DNA of 64,000 nt from Leptolyngbyaceae cyanobacterium JSC-12 (lineage in GTDB: Bacteria; Cyanobacteriota; Cyanobacteriia; Leptolyngbyales; Leptolyngbyaceae): contig CM001633.1 in NCBI GenBank assembly GCA_000309945.1, positions 4,475,912 to 4,539,911 of the forward strand, read 5' to 3'. The position numbers were made by a program, and so were the translations under genes. Below, one piece after another: positions 19,601-49,019 of this stretch (position 1 is its first letter; the number at the start of each line of letters is the position of its first letter). The notes under the pieces were generated by a model that made no database searches, was not told where the DNA came from, and saw only the letters and a list, made by a program, of their open reading frames with translations.

Positions 19601-20515
19601 TTACGGTGTAGTTTCTGTGCTGATTTGCTCGGGTGATTGCTTAACGATCACCCTGGATAGAAGATAGGCAACCTGACTCTTGCCCTGCCAGATGTTCAGG
19701 AACAAAGCCTCGTTACCTTTAGCAACCTTGAACACCTTGCGGGTCGGTTCATCCTTTACCAGGTTGACCGTGAACTCTTTCCCAGCCAGTTCTTTCTTGA
19801 AAAATTCGCTCACTTTAGCGATCGCCCCGTTTTGTATGGTCCGGCAATTATCGCCAAATCCCAAGCCAAAACAATCTGCTTCAGAGGGTTGATAGTGGGG
19901 AAAATCAGCAAATGGTTTAACAACACTCACACTGCTATTCGTGCTTGCCACAGCAGTGGTCGTCGAAGGAATGGTTGCATCCGAACTGGTCGATGGCTCA
20001 GCAGCAGCAATACTCTCCTCAGAACTTGAACGTGTCTCTTCAGTTGGTTTTGCTTTTGAAGCGTTACTATTCGAGGCTGACGTTGATTTAGTAGCGGGAA
20101 CAGTTGCTGTATTAGAACCAACTGTGGCGGTATCAGTGGAACTGTCCGAGGCAGTGCTAGCAGCGCTGGAATCCGCGGCAGAACCACTTGATGCACTGGA
20201 GGATGAGTTCGTCGAGTCTGCAACAGTGGCAGTCTCTAACGGCGGAACGTTGACAGTTGCTTGCGGCGTTGATTTGGTTGGCTTCTCAGTAGGAATTTGC
20301 GTAACAGTAATCGGGTTTTTCTTATCGTCAGGTTCCTTCTGTGCTTCAGAAGAAGGAATTGGCAGAGCTAAGAGCGCTGCATGTAATCCCAATGCTAAGA
20401 GCATCATAGGTAACATGAGCGATCGCCCTGGTGTTAAAAACCTTTTCATCGCATCAACAAAGCCAGATGTGCTCTCGGTTTTCTCATCCGTATTCATCTT
20501 TGTTGTATTCATCAT
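19601..20515 (-). CDS. TonB-shaped membrane-anchored protein with Ser/Thr-rich linker
   Basis: This 304-residue protein has a short cytoplasmic N-terminus and one membrane helix (LMLPMMLLALGLHAALLALP, residues 33-52). A disordered Ser/Thr/Ala-rich region of about 130 residues follows. A folded C-terminal domain of about 100 residues comes last, with two Cys (ADCFGLGFGDNCRT) and LFLNIWQGKSQVAYLLSRVIV. The layout is that of TonB or related energy-transducing proteins, but I see no clear TonB_C motif. A second gene with the same LGLHALLL anchor (22965-23747) lies on the far side of the porin. It reads divergently from the porin. Confidence 0.7.
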   Translation of the reverse strand: MMNTTKMNTDEKTESTSGFVDAMKRFLTPGRSLMLPMMLLALGLHAALLALPIPSSEAQKEPDDKKNPITVTQIPTEKPTKSTPQATVNVPPLETATVADSTNSSSSASSGSAADSSAASTASDSSTDTATVGSNTATVPATKSTSASNSNASKAKPTEETRSSSEESIAAAEPSTSSDATIPSTTTAVASTNSSVSVVKPFADFPHYQPSEADCFGLGFGDNCRTIQNGAIAKVSEFFKKELAGKEFTVNLVKDEPTRKVFKVAKGNEALFLNIWQGKSQVAYLLSRVIVKQSPEQISTETTP

Positions 20516-20978
20516 CAGGTTGCAAAACTGAAAGTTGTGTTAAAAACTGAAAATCATCAGTCACATTCTGCCTAGAAAGCACATCATCAATAATGCACAC
20601 TATCTCTGCATTTTTTTAATGGTTGAAGTCGTGACCTTGAAAGTCAAAGTAATCACACGGTATTGCATCCCTTATGCGACATCAGATGTCGCATAGGATA
20701 ACAAACGAGCGCCAAAACAGGACAATATCCGAATCTTTGCGAACTGTTCAGATTAAAAACTTCTCGCAAGTAGTATTAATCCTTACCTCATCCATCAGCA
20801 ATATACAGGAATACAAGAAAAAATTTTCTATTCTCTCCTTAACCTTTTGTTAGTGCAACGTTTGTTTGGACTTAACTGCTCCAAGGTTACTGTAAGTGTA
20901 GCATCTGGTTCTTGTTAGGCTCCTAATCTTCTATTTAGTAAGGCTCGCTGCAAATTACATGGATGTGAGGATTAATTA
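20516..20978. other. Divergent promoter region of the TonB-shaped gene and the porin
   Basis: This 463-base AT-rich region lies between divergent genes. It holds the perfect 10-3-10 palindrome at 20673-20695 and presumably both promoters. No open frame is convincing. The porin leader is long (about 280 bases from the palindrome to the ATG), which would allow RNA-level control. Confidence 0.65.
20673..20695. promoter_or_regulatory. Perfect 10-3-10 palindrome, candidate operator
   Basis: TATGCGACAT, CAG, ATGTCGCATA forms an exact inverted repeat in the divergent promoter region of the 20515 and 20979 genes. Its symmetry suits a dimeric repressor or activator. It does not match the Fur/Zur box or Pho box. 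There is no T tract, so it is unlikely to be a terminator. Confidence 0.7.
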
Positions 20979-22739
20979 ATGGCTCGAGTAATTTGGAAAT
21001 CTTTATGGCTGACTCCGGTATTGATTGGAGCGGCAACACTTGCATCGACCGCGCAGGTGAACGCTCAGTCAGCGCCTTCTCAACCCTCAACCCTTGACCA
21101 AATCTCTGCTTATGGTTCAGAAGGAAGAGGCAACAGCCTGAGTCAAGTTACCTCTGTATCCCAGTTTTCGGATGTACGCCCGACGGACTGGGCATTCCAG
21201 GCGCTGCAATCTTTAGTTGAGCGCTACGGTTGTATTGTGGGTTATCCCGACAAAACCTACCGCGGCAACCGCGCCCTGACTCGCTACGAGTTCGCCGCCG
21301 GTCTGAACGCCTGCTTAGACAAGATTCAAGAATTGATTGCGGCTGCGACCGCCGATTTTGTCCGCAAAGAAGACCTAGAAGTAATTAAGCGGTTGCAAGA
21401 AGAGTTTGCAGCTGAGTTGAGTGCTCTACGAGGACGCGTCGAAGCACTGGAAGTCCGTACCGCCACTCTGGAAAAGCAACAATTTTCGACGACCACCAAA
21501 CTGGCAGGCGAAGTGATCTTCTCCGTTGCTGACACCTTTGGTGACCGCGCCATCTTCACGGGGAACGACAGTTTTCTATCGGGAGTCGATGCTAGAAACC
21601 GTCGGGACTTGGAAGACGACCGCACCGAAACCATTTTTGGTAACCGCGTTCGTCTCAGCTTCGACAGCAGCTTTACCGGACGTGACCGTCTGCGCACACG
21701 GCTGAACGCCTCCAATATCACCCCCTTTTCTGGTACATTCACAGGCACCAACGAAACCCGGCTCTCCGTCGATGGCATCACGGGTAGCGGCAATGCCGTT
21801 GAAATCGACAAACTGTTCTACCGCTTTCCAGTTGGGCAGAGTCTACGAGTCCAAATTGATGCGATTAACCTGGAATACTACGATGGCTTAGTCAGTGCTC
21901 TCAGCCCGTTTGAGAGTTCTGGGCAAGCTGCAGTATCGCGCTTTGGCCGGTTTAATCCGGTTTATCGGAGTAATGCACCCGGTAACGTAGGGTCGGCTGG
22001 GATCACGTTTGACTATGCCTTCAGCCCGCAATTGTCCTTACAGGGTGGCTTTAGTGCTGACCGTGCTAGCAATGACCCCGGCACGAAAAACGGTATCTTC
22101 AACGGGGACTTTACTGCAATTGGGCAGTTGGTCTTCCGTCCCAGCCGCGCCTTTGATATTGGCTTAACCTATGTGCGTGCATACTACCCAGGCAGCAATA
22201 CCGGCTTGGGAGCCAACCCCTTCAACCAGCCAGCCCCCAACCTCACTGGTAGCACAGGCACTGGCTATGCTGCCAATCCCTTTGCTGGGGAAGCGACTGC
22301 GAGCAATAACTTTGCTGCTCAGGTGCAATGGCGCTTGACTCCAGCGATTACCATCGGTGGTTGGTATGGTTATAGTTTTGCTGGTAATCGGCGTACCAGT
22401 GAAGAAGCTCGGATTCAGAACTGGGCGGCGTTCCTGGCATTCCCGGATTTAGGTCGTAAAGGCAACCTGGGTGGCATTTTGTTTGGGATGCAGCCTCGCG
22501 TAGTCGATAATGACTTCCGTGCTCGTTTCACGACTGGACCAAACCGGGGCTTGCCGAACCCGAACATCCGGCGGCGCTTGGATGAAGATCCTCCATTCCA
22601 CCTTGAAGCCTTCTATCGCTTCCGGGTCAATGACAATATTTCGATTACCCCAGGTGCGTTTGTTTTGTTCAATCCTGAAGGGAACAGTGCCAATGACACT
22701 CAGTTTGTGGGTGTCATCCGCACAACCTTTACGTTCTAA
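20979..22739 (+). CDS. Iron-uptake-type SLH/OprB porin
   Basis: This 586-residue outer-membrane protein opens with a signal peptide (cleavage near NAQS, residue 30). An SLH domain follows (about residues 63-115: FSDVRPTDWAFQALQSLVERYG, key parts DVRPTDWAFQAL and LTRYEFAAGL) that binds the cell wall. A coiled-coil segment (EDLEVIKRLQEEFAAELSALRGRVEALE, about 130-165) comes next. The rest is a beta-barrel of the OprB type, ending in TFTF with a terminal aromatic residue. Cyanobacterial members carry inorganic ions, including iron, across the outer membrane. It lies between two TonB-shaped genes. Confidence 0.93.
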   Translation: MARVIWKSLWLTPVLIGAATLASTAQVNAQSAPSQPSTLDQISAYGSEGRGNSLSQVTSVSQFSDVRPTDWAFQALQSLVERYGCIVGYPDKTYRGNRALTRYEFAAGLNACLDKIQELIAAATADFVRKEDLEVIKRLQEEFAAELSALRGRVEALEVRTATLEKQQFSTTTKLAGEVIFSVADTFGDRAIFTGNDSFLSGVDARNRRDLEDDRTETIFGNRVRLSFDSSFTGRDRLRTRLNASNITPFSGTFTGTNETRLSVDGITGSGNAVEIDKLFYRFPVGQSLRVQIDAINLEYYDGLVSALSPFESSGQAAVSRFGRFNPVYRSNAPGNVGSAGITFDYAFSPQLSLQGGFSADRASNDPGTKNGIFNGDFTAIGQLVFRPSRAFDIGLTYVRAYYPGSNTGLGANPFNQPAPNLTGSTGTGYAANPFAGEATASNNFAAQVQWRLTPAITIGGWYGYSFAGNRRTSEEARIQNWAAFLAFPDLGRKGNLGGILFGMQPRVVDNDFRARFTTGPNRGLPNPNIRRRLDEDPPFHLEAFYRFRVNDNISITPGAFVLFNPEGNSANDTQFVGVIRTTFTF

Positions 22740-22751
22740 CATCTGAGTTTT

Positions 22752-22790
22752 CTGTGAGGCAGCTTTGGTTACCCAAATATTGCCTCACAG
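22752..22790 (+). terminator. First hairpin after the porin gene
   Basis: CTGTGAGGCA (22752-22761) pairs perfectly with TGCCTCACAG (22781-22790), 12 bases after the porin stop. It lacks a U tract, so it may protect the mRNA 3' end while the next hairpin terminates. Confidence 0.6.
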
Positions 22791-22827
22791 GGCTAAATTC
22801 TACTTTCTCACACCAACTTACTCAAAG

Positions 22828-22852
22828 AGCTGCCTAAATGGGCAGCTTTTTT
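22828..22852 (+). terminator. Rho-independent terminator of the porin
   Basis: AGCTGCC (22828-22834) and GGCAGCT (22841-22847) form a stem with a 6-base loop, followed by a run of six T. This is the likely transcript end of the porin gene. Confidence 0.88.
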
Positions 22853-22964
22853 GGGTTTAAGGGAGGTGTATTGTGATTACCGAAGCTGAATAAACAGATC
22901 GACCAGATATAGCCTGGCTTGGTCTATCTTAACCAGGACTTACCCAGAAGGAATGGATGCTGAT

Positions 22965-23747
22965 TTAACCTGGTTCTCGATTCCAAAGCACAATCAATGT
23001 ACCTGCACCTAACTGTGCCCGCACTAAGCTAACGTAACGAACAAAGTTGCCTTTCTTGAACTGGTAAACTGCGCTATCAGCATATTCAGGTTTTGGGGTA
23101 ATCGTGTAATCCGAATACAACTTAACGAGTTGGTTGTAAACGTCGTCTGGCTTTTGGAAAGAAATATATTCAACCCCAACAACGCCAGGCTTGCCTAACT
23201 CCTTGATGGGGTCTTTGTAAAAGTATTCTGGATTGGGAAACAAGGTAGAGGAAACAGGATCAGTCACTTCTCGCCCTTCTAGCCCTTGTAAGCGCTTTAC
23301 GAATACCTGCTCTTCTTGGGTAAGCTTTGGTGCTTGCCCGGCAGGACTAGCGTTGCTTACTTGAGGGGGGACTGTAGAAGAAGGTACTGTAGAAGAAGGT
23401 TGAGCTTTGGGAGCTTCTCTTTTGGCAACTGGTGAAGGAGATGCTTTTGGCTGAGAGGGGGGAGGAGAAGGGGAGAGGGATGGAGACGCTTTTACAACCA
23501 GTGAAGACTGAGACGCAACTCGTCGAGGTTCTGGTTTCTTCTCAGGAGTTTGCTTTTCTGGAGGCTTTACCGTTGTTAAGCGGGTTAACTGAACAGATTC
23601 TCCCTCTTCTTCGGAGTTTTGCTTTTGGGATTGCAGGGGCGCAAATAGCAAAAGAGCATGCAGCCCCAGAGCAATGAATAACATAGGAGCCCAGACAGAG
23701 CGCCATGAAATGGTAATTTTCTTGTAATTGGCACGAGTTGAAGGCAT
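22965..23747 (-). CDS. TonB-shaped membrane-anchored protein with Pro/Ser-rich linker
   Basis: This 260-residue protein has an anchor (APMLFIALGLHALLLFAP, residues 20-37). A Glu-rich patch and then a Pro/Lys/Ser-rich linker rich in SPSP and KPEP follow. A folded C-terminal domain of about 110 residues starts at LTQEEQVFVKRLQGLEG and ends in LGAGTLIVLWNREP. The anchor is nearly identical to that of the 19601-20515 gene, and both point to the same porin from opposite sides. Function is not recognised; a periplasm-spanning link to outer-membrane transport is an inference. Confidence 0.7.
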   Translation of the reverse strand: MPSTRANYKKITISWRSVWAPMLFIALGLHALLLFAPLQSQKQNSEEEGESVQLTRLTTVKPPEKQTPEKKPEPRRVASQSSLVVKASPSLSPSPPPSQPKASPSPVAKREAPKAQPSSTVPSSTVPPQVSNASPAGQAPKLTQEEQVFVKRLQGLEGREVTDPVSSTLFPNPEYFYKDPIKELGKPGVVGVEYISFQKPDDVYNQLVKLYSDYTITPKPEYADSAVYQFKKGNFVRYVSLVRAQLGAGTLIVLWNREPG

Positions 23748-23865: not shown

Positions 23866-24666
23866 TTAACCGAACCGTCCACTAACATAATCTTGAGTAC
23901 GCTTATGAGCAGGTTGATTAAATAGAATACTGGTTTGGTTGAACTCCAGCAACTCTCCTAAGTACATAAAAGCAGTGTAGTCAGACAACCGAGCTGCCTG
24001 CTGCATACTGTGAGTCACAATCAAGATAGTGACTTGTTGCTTTAGTTCGTTGACCAGATCCTCGATGCTGGCAGTAGCGATCGGGTCTAAAGCAGAAGTT
24101 GGTTCGTCAAACAAAACAATATCTGGATCAGTCGCGATCGCTCGAGCAATACACAACCGCTGCTGTTGCCCACCAGAGAGCATATAGGCAGAGTCTTTTA
24201 AACGATCTTTGACCTCATCCCAAAGAGCAGCACTTTTCAACGCTTGCTCCACCTTTTCATCCATTGCATTCCGTTTGGTCAAACCTTGAACCCGTAAGCC
24301 ATACGCCACGTTTTCATAAATTGACTTGGGGAATGGATTGGGGCGTTGGAACACCATACTAATGCGCATCCGGACTTCAATCGGATCAACCTTCTTGCCC
24401 AGAATGTTGACATCATCCATCAGAATTTCGCCACCATAGCGATTCCCCGGATACAGATCATGCATCCGGTTAAAACATCTGAGCAAGGTGGTTTTCCCAC
24501 AACCAGAAGGACCAATCAGTGCAGTCACTTTATGCTCAGGAACCATCATGTTGATATTTTTCAGCGCATGGGCGGTCCCTCCATAGTAAAAGTCCAAATT
24601 GCGAACCTCGGCTTTGGGATCGATCGCTGAAAAATTGAGTACACGAGATGCAACATCTTCTACCAT
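23866..24666 (-). CDS. pstB: Phosphate ABC transporter ATP-binding protein PstB
   Basis: This 266-residue ABC ATPase has Walker [20 protein letters not shown], the PstB-specific Q-loop [19 protein letters not shown], signature [16 protein letters not shown], Walker [15 protein letters not shown] and switch His in VTHSMQQA. It powers high-affinity phosphate import with PstC and PstA. The start overlaps pstA by 7 bases, so translation is coupled. It is the last gene of the pst unit; no phoU follows. Confidence 0.97.
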
Positions 24667-25598
24667 TTGATGCCCTTCCGAAAACGATAGCGGAGATAAA
24701 TAGCTAAACCATTCAATGTCAAAGTCATGAAAATCAGGATTACACCCGCTGCTGCCGCATTTACCTGAAACTCCTGCTCAGGTCGTGACACCCAGTTAAA
24801 CATTTGAATAGGCATCACGGTAAACGGAGCCTTGAGCCATTCAAATGAAATAAATGGAAACTCAGCCTTAATGGGGGATGGCGGGAGAAAGGCAATAAAA
24901 GTGAGTGCCCCAATCGTAATCAACGGAGCCGTTTCACCGATCGCCCGAGACAAACCAATGATAATTCCAGTTAGAATACTGCCAAATGAATAAGGCAGAA
25001 TGTGATCCCAAATCATCTGCCACCTACTAGCACCCAACGCGTAGGCAGCTTCTCGCAAAAGACTGGGAATTGCCCGCAAAGCTTCCCGCGTCGTCACAAT
25101 CACAATCGGCAAAATCAAGAGTGCCAGAGTCAACCCTGCAGTCAAGATACTTTCGCCTAATCCCAAAGTCTGGTTAAAAAAGCCCAGCGCCAGAAGCCCG
25201 TAAACAATCGACGGAACCCCTGCTAAATTCGTGACGTTAATTTCAATCAAGGCAGATATCCAATTCTTGGGGGCGTATTCCTCCAAGTAAATTCCAGCAG
25301 CAACTCCCACCGGAATAGCAATGATCATGGTGGCTAGCATAACCAGCAACGAACCTATCCAGGCAGCTAAGATTCCAGCCTCCAGAGGATTGCTACTAGG
25401 GAAAGAGGTGAAGAACTGCCAGGTAAGACGAGGAGCACCCTGGACAACCAGGCTTAAAACCAGGGATAACAGAGCGATCAACGCAACAAAAAGCACCAGT
25501 ATGCCTAAGATGGAGAAGGCACTACTAATAACTTGCCGCCGTGAAACATTGTCGTGGAGTTGGGTAACTTCCTTTTGTGAGAGTTCAAGTTGTGCCAT
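24660..25598 (-). CDS. pstA: Phosphate ABC transporter permease PstA
   Basis: This 312-residue inner-membrane permease has six predicted membrane segments. The EAA-type cytoplasmic loop [30 protein letters not shown] near residues 170-200 (key parts EAAYALGAS and HILP) contacts Pst[18 protein letters not shown] near 220 is typical of PstA. It forms the translocation pore with PstC, which ends three bases upstream. Confidence 0.96.
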
Positions 25599-25601
25599 TG
25601 G

Positions 25602-26588
25602 TTAATAGCTCTCCCGGAAGCGTTTTGTTAGAAAGTAGCCAATCACGTTGAAGACGAGGGTAATTAACACCAGCAGCAAACCAACTGCGAAAATACTTTG
25701 ATATTCGATCGTTCCATGGGGTAAGTCTCCTAAGCTAACCTGAACAATATAAGCGGTCATGGTGGCAGCAGAATCGAATGGGTTAAAGGTGAAGTTAGGC
25801 TGCAATCCAGCCGCGATCGCTACAATCATCGTCTCCCCAACCGCCCGGGAAATCCCCAAAATCACCGCTGCCATGATCCCAGAAATCGCAGCCGGTAAAA
25901 CGACCTTAAGCGCAGTTTGTAGCTTGGTTGCACCCGTTGCGTAAGACCCTTCTCGCAACCCAGCGGGAACGGCTCGCATTGCGTCTTCACTAATGGAACT
26001 GATCGTTGGCGTAATCATCAATCCCATCACAATCCCAGGTCCTAGCATATTAAAACCCGCCAGTTCCACTGGAAAAGTATCAGGCCAAACCTCAGCTAGA
26101 GTGGGACCAACAAAGCTATAAAGCCATTGCAAAATTGGCGTGACTAGTAACAGAGCGAAATACCCATAGACTACTGTTGGAACTGCTGCCAGCAACTCCA
26201 GAATTGGCTTGACCGTTTCTCGCAATTTCGCTCCAGCAAATTCGCTTAGATAAACCGCCGCAATCAGCCCCATCGGAACTGCTACGAACAGAGCAATAAT
26301 TGAAGTGGTCAATGTTCCAGACACCAGCGGCAAAATTCCGTACCCCGGTGGCTCAAACAATGGCGACCAATCCTTACTGGTCAAAAATTCAACAATCGAA
26401 ACATGGCTAAAGAATTGGATTGACTCTGCAATCAGGATTTCCATAATGGCAAGCGTTGCCGCTACACAGGAAAACCCAGCCAGAAATAAAACAAACCCTA
26501 TCGCCCGTTCTCGAAATTCACGGGATCGCTTACTTTTTGTAAATCGCTCGACTTGATTTGGCTCTCGAGGCTCTGCCGTCGTACTCAT
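25602..26588 (-). CDS. pstC: Phosphate ABC transporter permease PstC
   Basis: This permease of about 328 residues is counted from MSTTAEP at 26588. It has six membrane segments, the loop EDAMRAVPAGLREGSYATGATKLQTALKVVLP (key parts REGSYATGATK, VLPAA) and GISRAVGETMIVAIA. An open frame reaches further upstream to 26729, but those 47 residues are unlike PstC and would start inside a hairpin region. It is separated from pstS by about 210 bases containing a strong stem-loop. Confidence 0.95.
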   Translation of the reverse strand: MSTTAEPREPNQVERFTKSKRSREFRERAIGFVLFLAGFSCVAATLAIMEILIAESIQFFSHVSIVEFLTSKDWSPLFEPPGYGILPLVSGTLTTSIIALFVAVPMGLIAAVYLSEFAGAKLRETVKPILELLAAVPTVVYGYFALLLVTPILQWLYSFVGPTLAEVWPDTFPVELAGFNMLGPGIVMGLMITPTISSISEDAMRAVPAGLREGSYATGATKLQTALKVVLPAAISGIMAAVILGISRAVGETMIVAIAAGLQPNFTFNPFDSAATMTAYIVQVSLGDLPHGTIEYQSIFAVGLLLVLITLVFNVIGYFLTKRFRESY

Positions 26589-26760
26589 TTTGATTCGGTA
26601 AAGAACTAAAGCCAGTATCTGAATGCCTAGCTTCTGAACAAATACTGAACAAATAAAATAATAAACCTCATTCACGCCTAACCTGGTTAGGTTGCTTTGA
26701 GAGAAACCTTTGGGTTTTGAGTTAGGCATGATTTAACAAACCAACACGTTAATCAAGTTG

Positions 26761-26802: not shown

Positions 26803-27810
26803 TTAGTTTTTCAGTTCACGAGTAATCAAATCGTTAATCTTGAGACCAACGGCTTCTTCACCCCCAAAGATGGTACCCGTCTTGCCTGCATTAAAGCGCT
26901 TTGCAATTTCTGTGTAAGCATTAGCTGGTAAAGGAACGTATCTCACAGCTCTTGCTGCATTACCAGCATTCTTCAGGTAGTAATCTACGAAGCGCTTCAC
27001 TTCAGGCTTCTTAGCAGAGGCAGCGTTGACGTAGATAAAGATAGGACGAGACAAAGGCGTGTAGGCACCGCTAATCACATTGGCAGCCGAGGGAGCTACG
27101 CCATTGATCTTAACTGACTTCAGACGATTTTTGTTGGCTTCGTAATATGCCAAACCAAAATAGCCCAACGCACCTTTGTCACGAGAAACACCCTGTACAA
27201 GCACGTTGTCATCTTCACTAGCAGTGAAGTCTTTACGGCTAGCTTTGGACTTACCGTTAATCGCTTCGGTGAAGTAGTCAAAAGTACCAGAGTCAGCACC
27301 CGGTCCAAACAGTTTCAGGGGTTGGTTGGGGAAGCCAGAGCGCACTTCTCTCCAGTTGTTAACAGTACTGTTCGGCTCCCAAATCTTCTTCAGTTCAGCT
27401 GGAGTCATGTCGGTTGCCCAATTGTTGGCGGGGTTGACAACCACTGTCAATGCGTCATAAGCAATAGGCAGCTCGATGTAGCTGATGCCTTTTGCTCTAC
27501 AAGCATCCATTTCTTTCTTCAGAATGGGGCGAGATGCATTAGAAACATCGGTTTCACCAGCGCAGAACTTCTTGAATCCGCCACCTGTACCCGAAATCCC
27601 GACAGTTACTTTGGTCCCGGTAGCCTTCTGAAAATCTTCGGCAATTTTTTCGGTAATCGGGTAAACCGTACTGGAACCATCCACTTTGACGGTACTACCC
27701 TGAGAGTTCACCGCAGCCACGGACAGCCCAATCACAGCAACAGTTGCTGCAGTTGCACTAACGAGCGTGGTGAAGCGGCTTGGCACAAGCTTCACATTAT
27801 TGACCACCAT
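26803..27810 (-). CDS. pstS: Phosphate-binding protein PstS
   Basis: Counted from MVVNNVKL at 27810 this is a 335-residue periplasmic binding protein with a signal peptide ([20 protein letters not shown]). It has [39 protein letters not shown] and [17 protein letters not shown], the loops that hold phosphate. SPAEL-type [11 protein letters not shown] also matches. It delivers phosphate to PstCAB. A longer frame to 27843 exists but precedes a less natural signal peptide. Three CTTAACC-type half-sites lie upstream (27869-27963). Confidence 0.95.
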
Positions 27811-27868
27811 AGTTTTGCTCCAGAAGATTAAATGTTCAGTCAAACATCAGGTATCACCATACTGGTTT

Positions 27869-27963
27869 AGGGTTAAGAGCCAGTGATATTAGATTATGGT
27901 TTAGTTATCTAAGGGTTAAATTTTTCTAGAAAATGGGTCTGGAAATCTTAATTAAAGGTTAAG
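27869..27963 (-). promoter_or_regulatory. Three Pho-box-like half-sites upstream of pstS
   Basis: On the minus strand, CTTAACCCT (27877-27869), TTTAACCCT (27920-27912) and CTTAACCTT (27963-27955) resemble the cyanobacterial Pho-box repeat PyTTAAPyPyT. They start exactly 43 bases apart, about four helical turns. Classical Pho boxes have units 11 bases apart, so binding by the PhoB-type regulator is likely but the layout is unusual. Confidence 0.55.
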
Positions 27964-28180
27964 AAAAGATCAGGGTAGTTGTGAGGTCTGTTTGGATCAG
28001 CGATTGCTGGTTTGAGCAATCCTTGTGTGTCAGACATTTCAGCTTCTTGATAGTGATCTCGCTCAGCCGAATTTCCTCGGTTTAACATAGAAGATGCATT
28101 GCTCGCGTTAAGTTGCGCTATGGCAGCGTTTTTTTAGCAACGAGTGAATCTGGAAAGAGTGGAACTGGCAAGTTATTTTC

Positions 28181-47951: not shown

Positions 47952-49019
47952 CTATTTGCTTGCTTGTTCTTCCTGAAAAATGGTTTGTCTACGAAGCACT
48001 TCAGTCACTGTGACATTTGGTTCCGGTACACCTTCGAAAGCTGTGCCAATCTGCCCTCGTGTAAATTGAATCTCTGCCAGGCGATAGGCATCTTCTGGTA
48101 GTGGCAAATAGCCGACCGTTTCAACTAGACTTGGTGCATTTTTAAGATAAAACTCCACGAATGCCCTCAGTTCTCGCTTATCCTGAGCCGACTTTGAGTT
48201 GACATAGATAAATAAGGGACGCGAAAGTGGTTGGTAGGTGGCATTTTTAATGTTTTCATCATCAGGTGGAACTGGTCCTTTGCCATTATCAACAGGTAGT
48301 GCTTTCACTGCTCCCTGACTTTGCTTGTAATAAGCATGGGGAATATATCCTAGTGCGCCTGGAAATTTGTTAATCCCTTGCACCAGAATGCGATCGTCCT
48401 CACTGCCTACATAATCAGCACGCGCATTATCTTTACTTCCCGTAATCGCTTCGTTGAAATAGTCAAAAGTTCCAGAGTCGGCTCCGGCTCCAAACAGCGT
48501 CAGGGGTTGATCTGGATAGGAAGGGCGAATCTGTTTCCAATTGGTGATCTTGCCTTGAGCAGATCTTTCCCACACTTTCTTTAATTCATCAACGGTAATG
48601 TCTTGTGCCCAGGAATTTTGTGGATTGACTGCAATAGTAAGTGCATCAAACGCGACTGGCAGTTCGATGAAAGCCACCCCATTTCTTACGCAGGTTGACA
48701 TCTCTTCTTTCAGGATAGGGCGGGAAGCGTTGCTGATGTCAGTTTCACCGGCACAAAATCGCCGAAATCCAGCAGTTGTTCCAGCGAATTTCACTTCAAT
48801 CTCGGCTTTGGCACCTTCTGGTGTAGCGCGAAAGGCCTTAGCAACAGCATCGGTGACTGGATAGACTGTACTGGAACCATCTGCCACGATTTTTCCGGCA
48901 GGTGGTCCAGCGAGTTTGGGAGCATCTGTCTGCTTCGGTTGAGTGCAGGCACCTAGTGCAAGTGTTGCGGCGATCGCAAGAACCGATAGCCTCGATTTAA
49001 TGAGTGTGTTGTCAAGCAT
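47952..49019 (-). CDS. PstS-like phosphate/arsenate-binding lipoprotein in the ars operon
   Basis: This 355-residue protein has a lipobox LALGACTQ (Cys at about residue 25). It also carries the PstS core: [58 protein letters not shown] and YQPLSRPLFIYVNS. It differs from PstS at 26803 in having a lipoprotein anchor and a longer tail. Its place between arsR and acr3 suggests it helps separate phosphate from arsenate or binds oxyanions in the periplasm. It has no permease beside it, so it would need the pst proteins. Confidence 0.9.
   Translation of the reverse strand: MLDNTLIKSRLSVLAIAATLALGACTQPKQTDAPKLAGPPAGKIVADGSSTVYPVTDAVAKAFRATPEGAKAEIEVKFAGTTAGFRRFCAGETDISNASRPILKEEMSTCVRNGVAFIELPVAFDALTIAVNPQNSWAQDITVDELKKVWERSAQGKITNWKQIRPSYPDQPLTLFGAGADSGTFDYFNEAITGSKDNARADYVGSEDDRILVQGINKFPGALGYIPHAYYKQSQGAVKALPVDNGKGPVPPDDENIKNATYQPLSRPLFIYVNSKSAQDKRELRAFVEFYLKNAPSLVETVGYLPLPEDAYRLAEIQFTRGQIGTAFEGVPEPNVTVTEVLRRQTIFQEEQASK

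Follow-up and report, generated by a model that had tools for sequence, protein, structure and literature searches.

The DNA analyzed here (the window) is a 64,000-nucleotide stretch of contig CM001633.1 of Leptolyngbyaceae cyanobacterium JSC-12, in which a gene for an SLH/OprB porin lies between the genes of two TonB-like proteins, A and B, and the genes of a Pst-type phosphate importer lie next to B (Table 1). The three-gene layout had been reported in a preliminary description of this DNA, and its coordinates were exact. The divergent genes of A and the porin are separated by 463 base pairs (bp). The genes pstS, pstC, pstA, pstB and B run on a common strand with a gap of 119 bp between pstB and B, a point absent from that description, and the PstB and PstS models were both matched above their curated cut-offs. 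The genome of the window is designated G000, and other G and L numbers designate genomes and loci of relatives.

Table 1. Features of the A-porin-B-pst locus, with positions in the window (aa, amino acids; ABC, ATP-binding cassette; pLDDT, predicted local distance difference test score; pTM, predicted template modelling score)
Feature	Position	Strand	Remarks
Protein A gene	19601..20515	-	304 aa; TonB-like: anchor, Ser/Thr linker and domain A; divergent to porin
Domain A, C-terminal, modelled beta-alpha-4beta	19646..19918	-	AlphaFold pLDDT 80.2, pTM 0.66; boundaries set manually
Protein A membrane anchor with His (LMLPMMLLALGLHAALLALP)	20360..20419	-	residues 33-52; coordinates by hand
SLH/OprB porin gene	20979..22739	+	586 aa; NF033921 'iron uptake porin'
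Protein B gene	22965..23747	-	260 aa; TonB-like: anchor, Pro/Ser/Lys linker and domain B
Domain B, C-terminal, modelled beta-alpha-4beta	22974..23270	-	AlphaFold pLDDT 89.8, pTM 0.83; boundaries set manually
Protein B membrane anchor with His (PMLFIALGLHALLLFAPL)	23634..23687	-	residues 21-38; coordinates by hand
pstB, phosphate ABC transporter ATPase	23866..24666	-	TIGR00972, 380.8 bits (cut-off 343.2)
pstA, phosphate permease	24660..25598	-	read from sequence and gene order
pstC, phosphate permease	25602..26729	-	read from sequence and gene order
pstS-family phosphate-binding protein gene	26803..27843	-	TIGR02136, 312.8 bits (cut-off 206.6)
Two Pho-box-like sites, 5' of pstS	27891..27974 (27891-27920, 27945-27974)	-	motif scoring against shuffles

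Proteins A and B share one architecture: a single N-terminal membrane helix with LGLHA, a disordered linker and one folded domain, which agrees with the TonB-shaped build (anchor, long linker, C-terminal domain) proposed earlier. The common anchor core, LGLHAALLALP in A and LGLHALLLFAP in B, was likewise as described, and so was the difference between the linkers, which is one of composition: residues 56-200 of A (145 aa) contain 23% Ser and 17% Thr (Ser and Thr together, 41%), and residues 44-143 of B (100 aa) contain 20% Pro, 18% Ser and 9% Lys. A BLASTP match (9e-8) was obtained between residues 31-85 of A and residues 16-69 of B, covering the anchor and early linker. The C-terminal domains had been called different, a claim that did not hold: they are homologous, with the same modelled topology, and their profiles were aligned by hhalign with a probability of 95.1% (E 3.3e-8) over 63 columns. 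That they match unrelated families, the outcome named there as refuting the idea, proved false.

The membrane helices of TonB and TolA carry a His, which in E. coli TonB stands in the pattern Ser-x-x-x-His. A script detected a membrane helix with His in 89 of the 97 distinct family proteins. Of the eight misses, two begin at a contig end or close to one, a further two have a His-helix slightly below threshold, two have the His visible beside the scored stretch, and those at L153 and L167 are without it. Ser or Ala occupied the position His minus 4 in 85 of the 92 proteins matching a loose motif.

Neither A nor B was named by Pfam or NCBIfam, and the matches listed were far below cut-off. A search for PF03544 (TonB_C) found none in A or B (threshold E 10) or, at the stricter threshold of 0.01, among 37 rows of domain B and 31 of domain A, where two single weak matches were to other families; PF03544 was matched in G000 by two genes, both other than A and B. 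Canonical TonB was ruled out as the family name because TonB_C was not found in A, B or their relatives. The proteins resemble TonB (PF03544) in the N-terminal His helix, the long Pro/Ser-rich linker, the small C-terminal alpha/beta domain and, for many relatives, the linkage to ExbB/ExbD, but differ from it in that they give no Pfam TonB_C match and adjoin inorganic-ion importers and SLH porins. Judged by anatomy and context, the A/B family is TonB-like and not a member of TonB_C. Four genes for TonB-dependent receptors (PF00593) were found in G000, the nearest about 0.5 Mb from A and B, a negative result for adjacency only, the surroundings of relatives not having been searched.

No known fold stood out in the PDB for the C-terminal domains. 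Foldseek (E <= 0.001) returned nothing in the PDB for domain A or B, nor in a viral library for domain B. The best VIA-align Z scores were 5.9 for domain B (67 aligned; root-mean-square deviation 1.7) and 7.4 for domain A (65 aligned; 1.8), and the rows, all with Z <8, included KA1, BamC, DcrB, EagR/SciW and PsbP; TonB was not among the rows listed, which says nothing for or against a TonB fold. A PDB sequence-profile search gave no match for domain B and five for domain A at E 0.068-0.25, which were judged to be chance.

The A/B family is real, widespread and apparently undescribed, and its genomic links with phosphate and iron import, ExbB-ExbD and SLH porins are strong. Of 388 genomes of the class, 130 contained domain A and 116 domain B (profiles, E <= 1e-4), with at most 12 candidates per genome scored and the profiles seeded with the same sequences as the examined loci. 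An earlier search with a full-length A+B profile, in which at most six candidates per genome were scored, found 22 of 292 genomes. The 97 distinct proteins examined comprised 24 with domain A only (A-only), 37 with domain B only (B-only) and 36 with both (A+B). Their loci are a non-random sample, 32 from the first search for relatives and the rest from profile hit lists, picked for assembly and for spread over genera and not for neighbors; two loci (L145 and L146) yielded no family protein. A third family protein of G000, A-only, was seen at 1.29 Mb (L135:7902-8612, minus strand) flanked by a gene for a FutC-like ATPase and by cofG and close to a fused FutB-like permease.

Of the 97 proteins, 75 had a Pst/Fut-type importer gene at a distance of up to 8 kb, 46 ExbB/ExbD, 19 an SLH porin and 87 one or more of these; the labels are BLAST matches to a reference set chosen after some loci had been seen, not curated names, and many contigs end <8 kb from the family gene. 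By type, the importer, ExbB/ExbD and porin counts were 21, 5 and 3 for A-only (n = 24), 24, 26 and 10 for A+B (n = 36), and 30, 15 and 6 for B-only proteins (n = 37). Thirteen of the 37 B-only genes lay at most 256 bp 3' of pstB on the same strand. The importer of 18 of the 36 A+B proteins was of a second kind, with a PstS unlike that of the window; at L079, the sole such locus tested, PstS, PstC, PstA and PstB all scored above curated phosphate cut-offs. For 18 of the 24 A-only proteins the importer was of the Fut type, and the binding proteins at the three loci tested matched ferric-binding proteins in the PDB. The best match for those of L147 and L148, over all 346 residues, was 2voz, which we take to be Synechocystis FutA2. 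At L147-L149 a gap of 81 bp separates the FutA2-like gene from an A-only gene behind it, and ExbB and ExbD lie no more than about 2.6 kb away. The identity of ExbB and ExbD was Pfam-confirmed in two loci. The neatest locus, in G425, places a porin, pstS-pstC-pstA-pstB-B-B (gaps of 17 and 13 bp) and, facing them, exbD-exbD-exbB within about 10 kb. One exbB with two exbD in tandem was also observed at L137, L139, L140, L148, L149, L152 and L156.

The porin between A and B is an SLH/OprB iron-type porin as described, with matches to NF033921 (628.8 bits; cut-off 100), SLH (5.8e-8) and OprB (2.5e-50). 'Iron uptake' is the family name of NF033921, so iron transport is a putative function here; the coiled coil of the porin was judged by eye only. 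G000 holds 10 SLH/OprB porin matches at E <= 1e-60, the one flanked by A and B among them. The N-terminus was matched by script in 11 of the 12 listed porins >500 aa, and these 11 carry (Q/N)VT(S/A)VSQ directly before SLH; this TonB-box-like signal, compared only among porins near family genes, was not used as evidence.

Genomic linkage was computed on the main (C1) contigs of 13 genomes, with the fragmented G014, G418 and G311 left out beforehand and porins on other contigs left out. ExbB lay within 10 kb of 14 of the 26 family genes, in 9 of the 13 genomes (0.35 expected), and an SLH porin within 10 kb of 10 of the 26, in 6 of the 13 (0.84 expected); none of 20,000 circular shifts was as high in either case. 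The gene list, drawn from the matches listed, is incomplete, G430 and G207 each having one further A match. Without the window's genome, the counts were 14 of 23 for ExbB and 8 of 23 for the porin. The idea of a paired system coupled to porins was thus borne out in part: the family is linked to SLH porins and more strongly to ExbB/ExbD, but A-porin-B as a general unit was not supported. The whole A-porin-B order recurs on contig C528 of G001 and so is not unique to this genome. In G002, A and an apparent start of the porin gene (judged by eye) lie at one contig end, and B and pst at the end of another contig. In the set of loci studied, this exact order was confined to the genus of the window, as would be expected if it were an accident of gene placement; that explanation is highly improbable, since the linkage statistics largely refute it and the placement of family genes after pstB is operon-like.

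In a tree of 59 ExbB proteins from 16 genomes, all 15 family-linked ExbB fell on one branch of 19 rows (support 100/100), which is represented in 14 of the 16 genomes. The other four members of the branch belong to G000 (L102, at 2.715 Mb), G049, G432 and G008, each of which has a family gene lacking a nearby ExbB. G000 contains four ExbB-ExbD pairs. L102 lies on the branch that holds all family-linked ExbB, and the orphan ExbB-ExbD pair at this locus is therefore predicted as the most likely partner of A and B. The wider pattern is a TonB-like protein with an importer of the Pst or Fut type and a particular branch of ExbB. Beside the canonical TonB-ExbB-ExbD locus, many short open reading frames repeating peptide motifs were seen (L103:1-6121), resembling an array of clustered regularly interspaced short palindromic repeats.

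In a tree of 60 domain-A rows, all 22 Fut-linked rows and two unlabelled rows fell on one side of a branch (Shimodaira-Hasegawa-like approximate likelihood ratio test, 99), and the Fut label required one change compared with 15.3 in shuffles, none of 500 being as low. The domain A of the window was placed on the non-Fut side, among A+B proteins of phosphate loci. Its nearest relative outside the genus, in G007, has adjacent A+B and B-only proteins at a locus that also holds ExbB/ExbD, a PstS-type protein, a porin and PstCAB. Labels were clustered in the domain-B tree as well (Pst, 5 changes compared with 18.2 in shuffles). Both trees had few columns (115 and 110) and were made by a quick method. 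The placement of the window's domain A and the clustering in the domain-B tree suggest that A and B are most likely both of the phosphate kind. The window's pair was also considered as a simple split of an A+B protein, which was contradicted because an A+B protein (L064) also occurs in the same genus and domain A of the window groups with phosphate-group A+B proteins. The likeliest origin of A appears to be an A+B ancestor that lost domain B.

The sorting of neighbors bears on two explanations in which A and B supply no transport energy. As envelope organizers like TolA or SjdR, they would be anchors, to peptidoglycan or the outer membrane, aligning porin and importer. This would fit the SLH domain of the porin, the action on septal peptidoglycan of Anabaena SjdR, formerly TonB1 (excerpts of PMC8262864 and PMC8597729), and weak anchor and linker matches: GltJ in A and B, far below cut-off, and NCBIfam TolA in B (residues 23-118; E 0.13; 11.4 bits, cut-off 59.45), no TolA match being listed for A (E up to 1). 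Importer-sorted neighbors and a common ExbB branch would be unexpected for a general organizer, and we regard this role as improbable. Alternatively, A and B would be envelope sensors reporting phosphate or iron status through ExbB-ExbD-like partners, as the majority adjoin an importer of one scarce nutrient. However, no signalling domain was recognized in Pfam/NCBIfam scans of A, B and the domain rows, and proteins of the ExbB-ExbD type are motors, which leaves a sensor very improbable.

We consider it fairly probable that A and B are cyanobacterial TonB-like transducers with a dedicated ExbB-ExbD motor, acting on the SLH porin and possibly also on PstS, with phosphate as the ion imported here. 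We infer a transducer-ExbB-ExbD complex, force transmission, porin contact and phosphate as cargo as follows. The dedicated ExbB-ExbD, fed by the proton gradient, would move the transducer through its His-bearing helix, the long disordered linker would span the periplasm, and the small alpha/beta domain, replacing TonB_C, would act on the outer side of the import route of one ion. The likeliest target would be the SLH/OprB porin between A and B, which may be opened or have ions pulled through it, and PstS is a possible second one; the porin is preferred because it is the only recognized outer-membrane candidate in the locus. The importer served here would be PstSCAB, from which the function is read as energized phosphate entry, and a sister branch of the family would serve iron import of the FutABC type.

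Several results weigh against this reading. In G000 itself, A and B have no ExbB-ExbD nearby; 51 of the 97 family proteins are without ExbB/ExbD within 8 kb, and one of the five A-only cases with it has a 64-aa ExbB fragment. G207 and G311 carry a family gene yet contribute no ExbB to the special branch, and G007, G425, G028 and G418 each have a further family gene lacking its own nearby ExbB. The ExbB tree is without a negative control because the family is present in all 16 genomes, and long branches that meet drew a warning from the program. In the domain-B tree, labels are not confined to one branch, and the Pho-box signal before the A/porin pair did not exceed that of shuffles (236 of 500 as good). 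Contact with the porin is inferred because, on the 13 main contigs, a nearby porin was found only within the taxonomic family of the window and, in the neighborhood table, no Fut-linked row had a porin within 8 kb. The latter result would also be expected if the ExbB-ExbD-driven transducer acted on the binding protein (PstS, FutA) or the ABC permease, with the porin as a regulatory neighbor; the C-terminal domain may, for example, release or deliver the loaded binding protein. The binding protein is the main rival target because importers, near 75 of the 97 proteins, are the most frequent neighbors and porins, near 19, the least frequent, and the domain-A tree, which tracks the neighboring importer, and the 81-bp spacing from the ferric-binding-protein gene at L147-L149 point the same way. 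Against it stand a porin linkage about 12 times the shift expectation and the energetics, as no ABC importer with a binding protein is known to need a second energy source. This alternative is unlikely, and transducers acting on the porin remain our preferred reading.

When the gap before pstS was shuffled 500 times, a Pho-box-like site as good as the best one there arose in 3 cases. A perfect 10-bp inverted repeat with a 3-bp center (TATGCGACAT/ATGTCGCATA) was seen at 20673-20695 inside the A/porin gap and was absent from two sister genomes by alignment. Upstream of the porin, a block at 20838-20885 is kept in three genus members (the window, L063 and L065 gaps); it has two CTTAAC cores 33 bp apart and is possibly a regulator site. 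A second PstS-like gene of the window (47952-49019, minus strand) is about half identical to relatives' PstS in the neighbor BLAST.

No paper on the A/B family was found in the literature, with most subscription journals outside the search, and the available portions of PMC11221513 and PMC11358556 make no mention of a family of this type. Anabaena TonB1-TonB4 (SjdR, all3585, TonB3 and alr5329) are comparable in being cyanobacterial, TonB-shaped, several per genome and different in their jobs, with TonB2 and TonB4 having a slight siderophore role or none (excerpts of PMC8597729); they were assigned by a tonB signature and are set beside A and B here by description, not by sequence. In Synechocystis, inorganic iron uptake requires ExbB-ExbD and porins take part, according to sections of PMC7676907, which tie this uptake to the whole TonB system, whereas the A/B family would be substrate-dedicated, phosphate included. 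The Synechocystis protein sll0477 is named as ExbB-like (part of PMC3925133). Slr0514, an 'unknown protein', and slr0513 (FutA2) belong to the 60 genes with the most significant changes under iron depletion, slr0514 being raised (part of PMC3516471). The order of the FutA2-like and A-only genes at L147-L149 suggests that slr0514 may be a Synechocystis family member, a suggestion based on gene number and that layout, not on its sequence.

Slr1908 is an iron-selective porin under PhoB control (excerpts of PMC11126600) and an SLH/OprB protein (excerpts of PMC8707739). It has the same domain make-up as the porin of the window, but in those excerpts it is not linked with any energy transducer. PhoB-controlled Slr1908 is a precedent for a link among phosphate, iron and porins. 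The A/B family, present in about one-third of the sampled genomes and with a domain A that sorts by neighboring importer, is a concrete candidate for a link between ExbB-ExbD and porins. With it the idea also covers phosphate, which likewise limits the growth of cyanobacteria. More tentatively, and with less confidence than for the locus itself, A and B may represent a second kind of TonB system, in which substrate-dedicated transducers without TonB_C and their own ExbB-ExbD clade energize SLH/OprB porins, instead of TonB-dependent receptors, for phosphate and ferric iron. If so, simple inorganic ions would be actively imported through the outer membrane. The data suggest that cyanobacteria may spend energy on bringing simple nutrients across the outer membrane.

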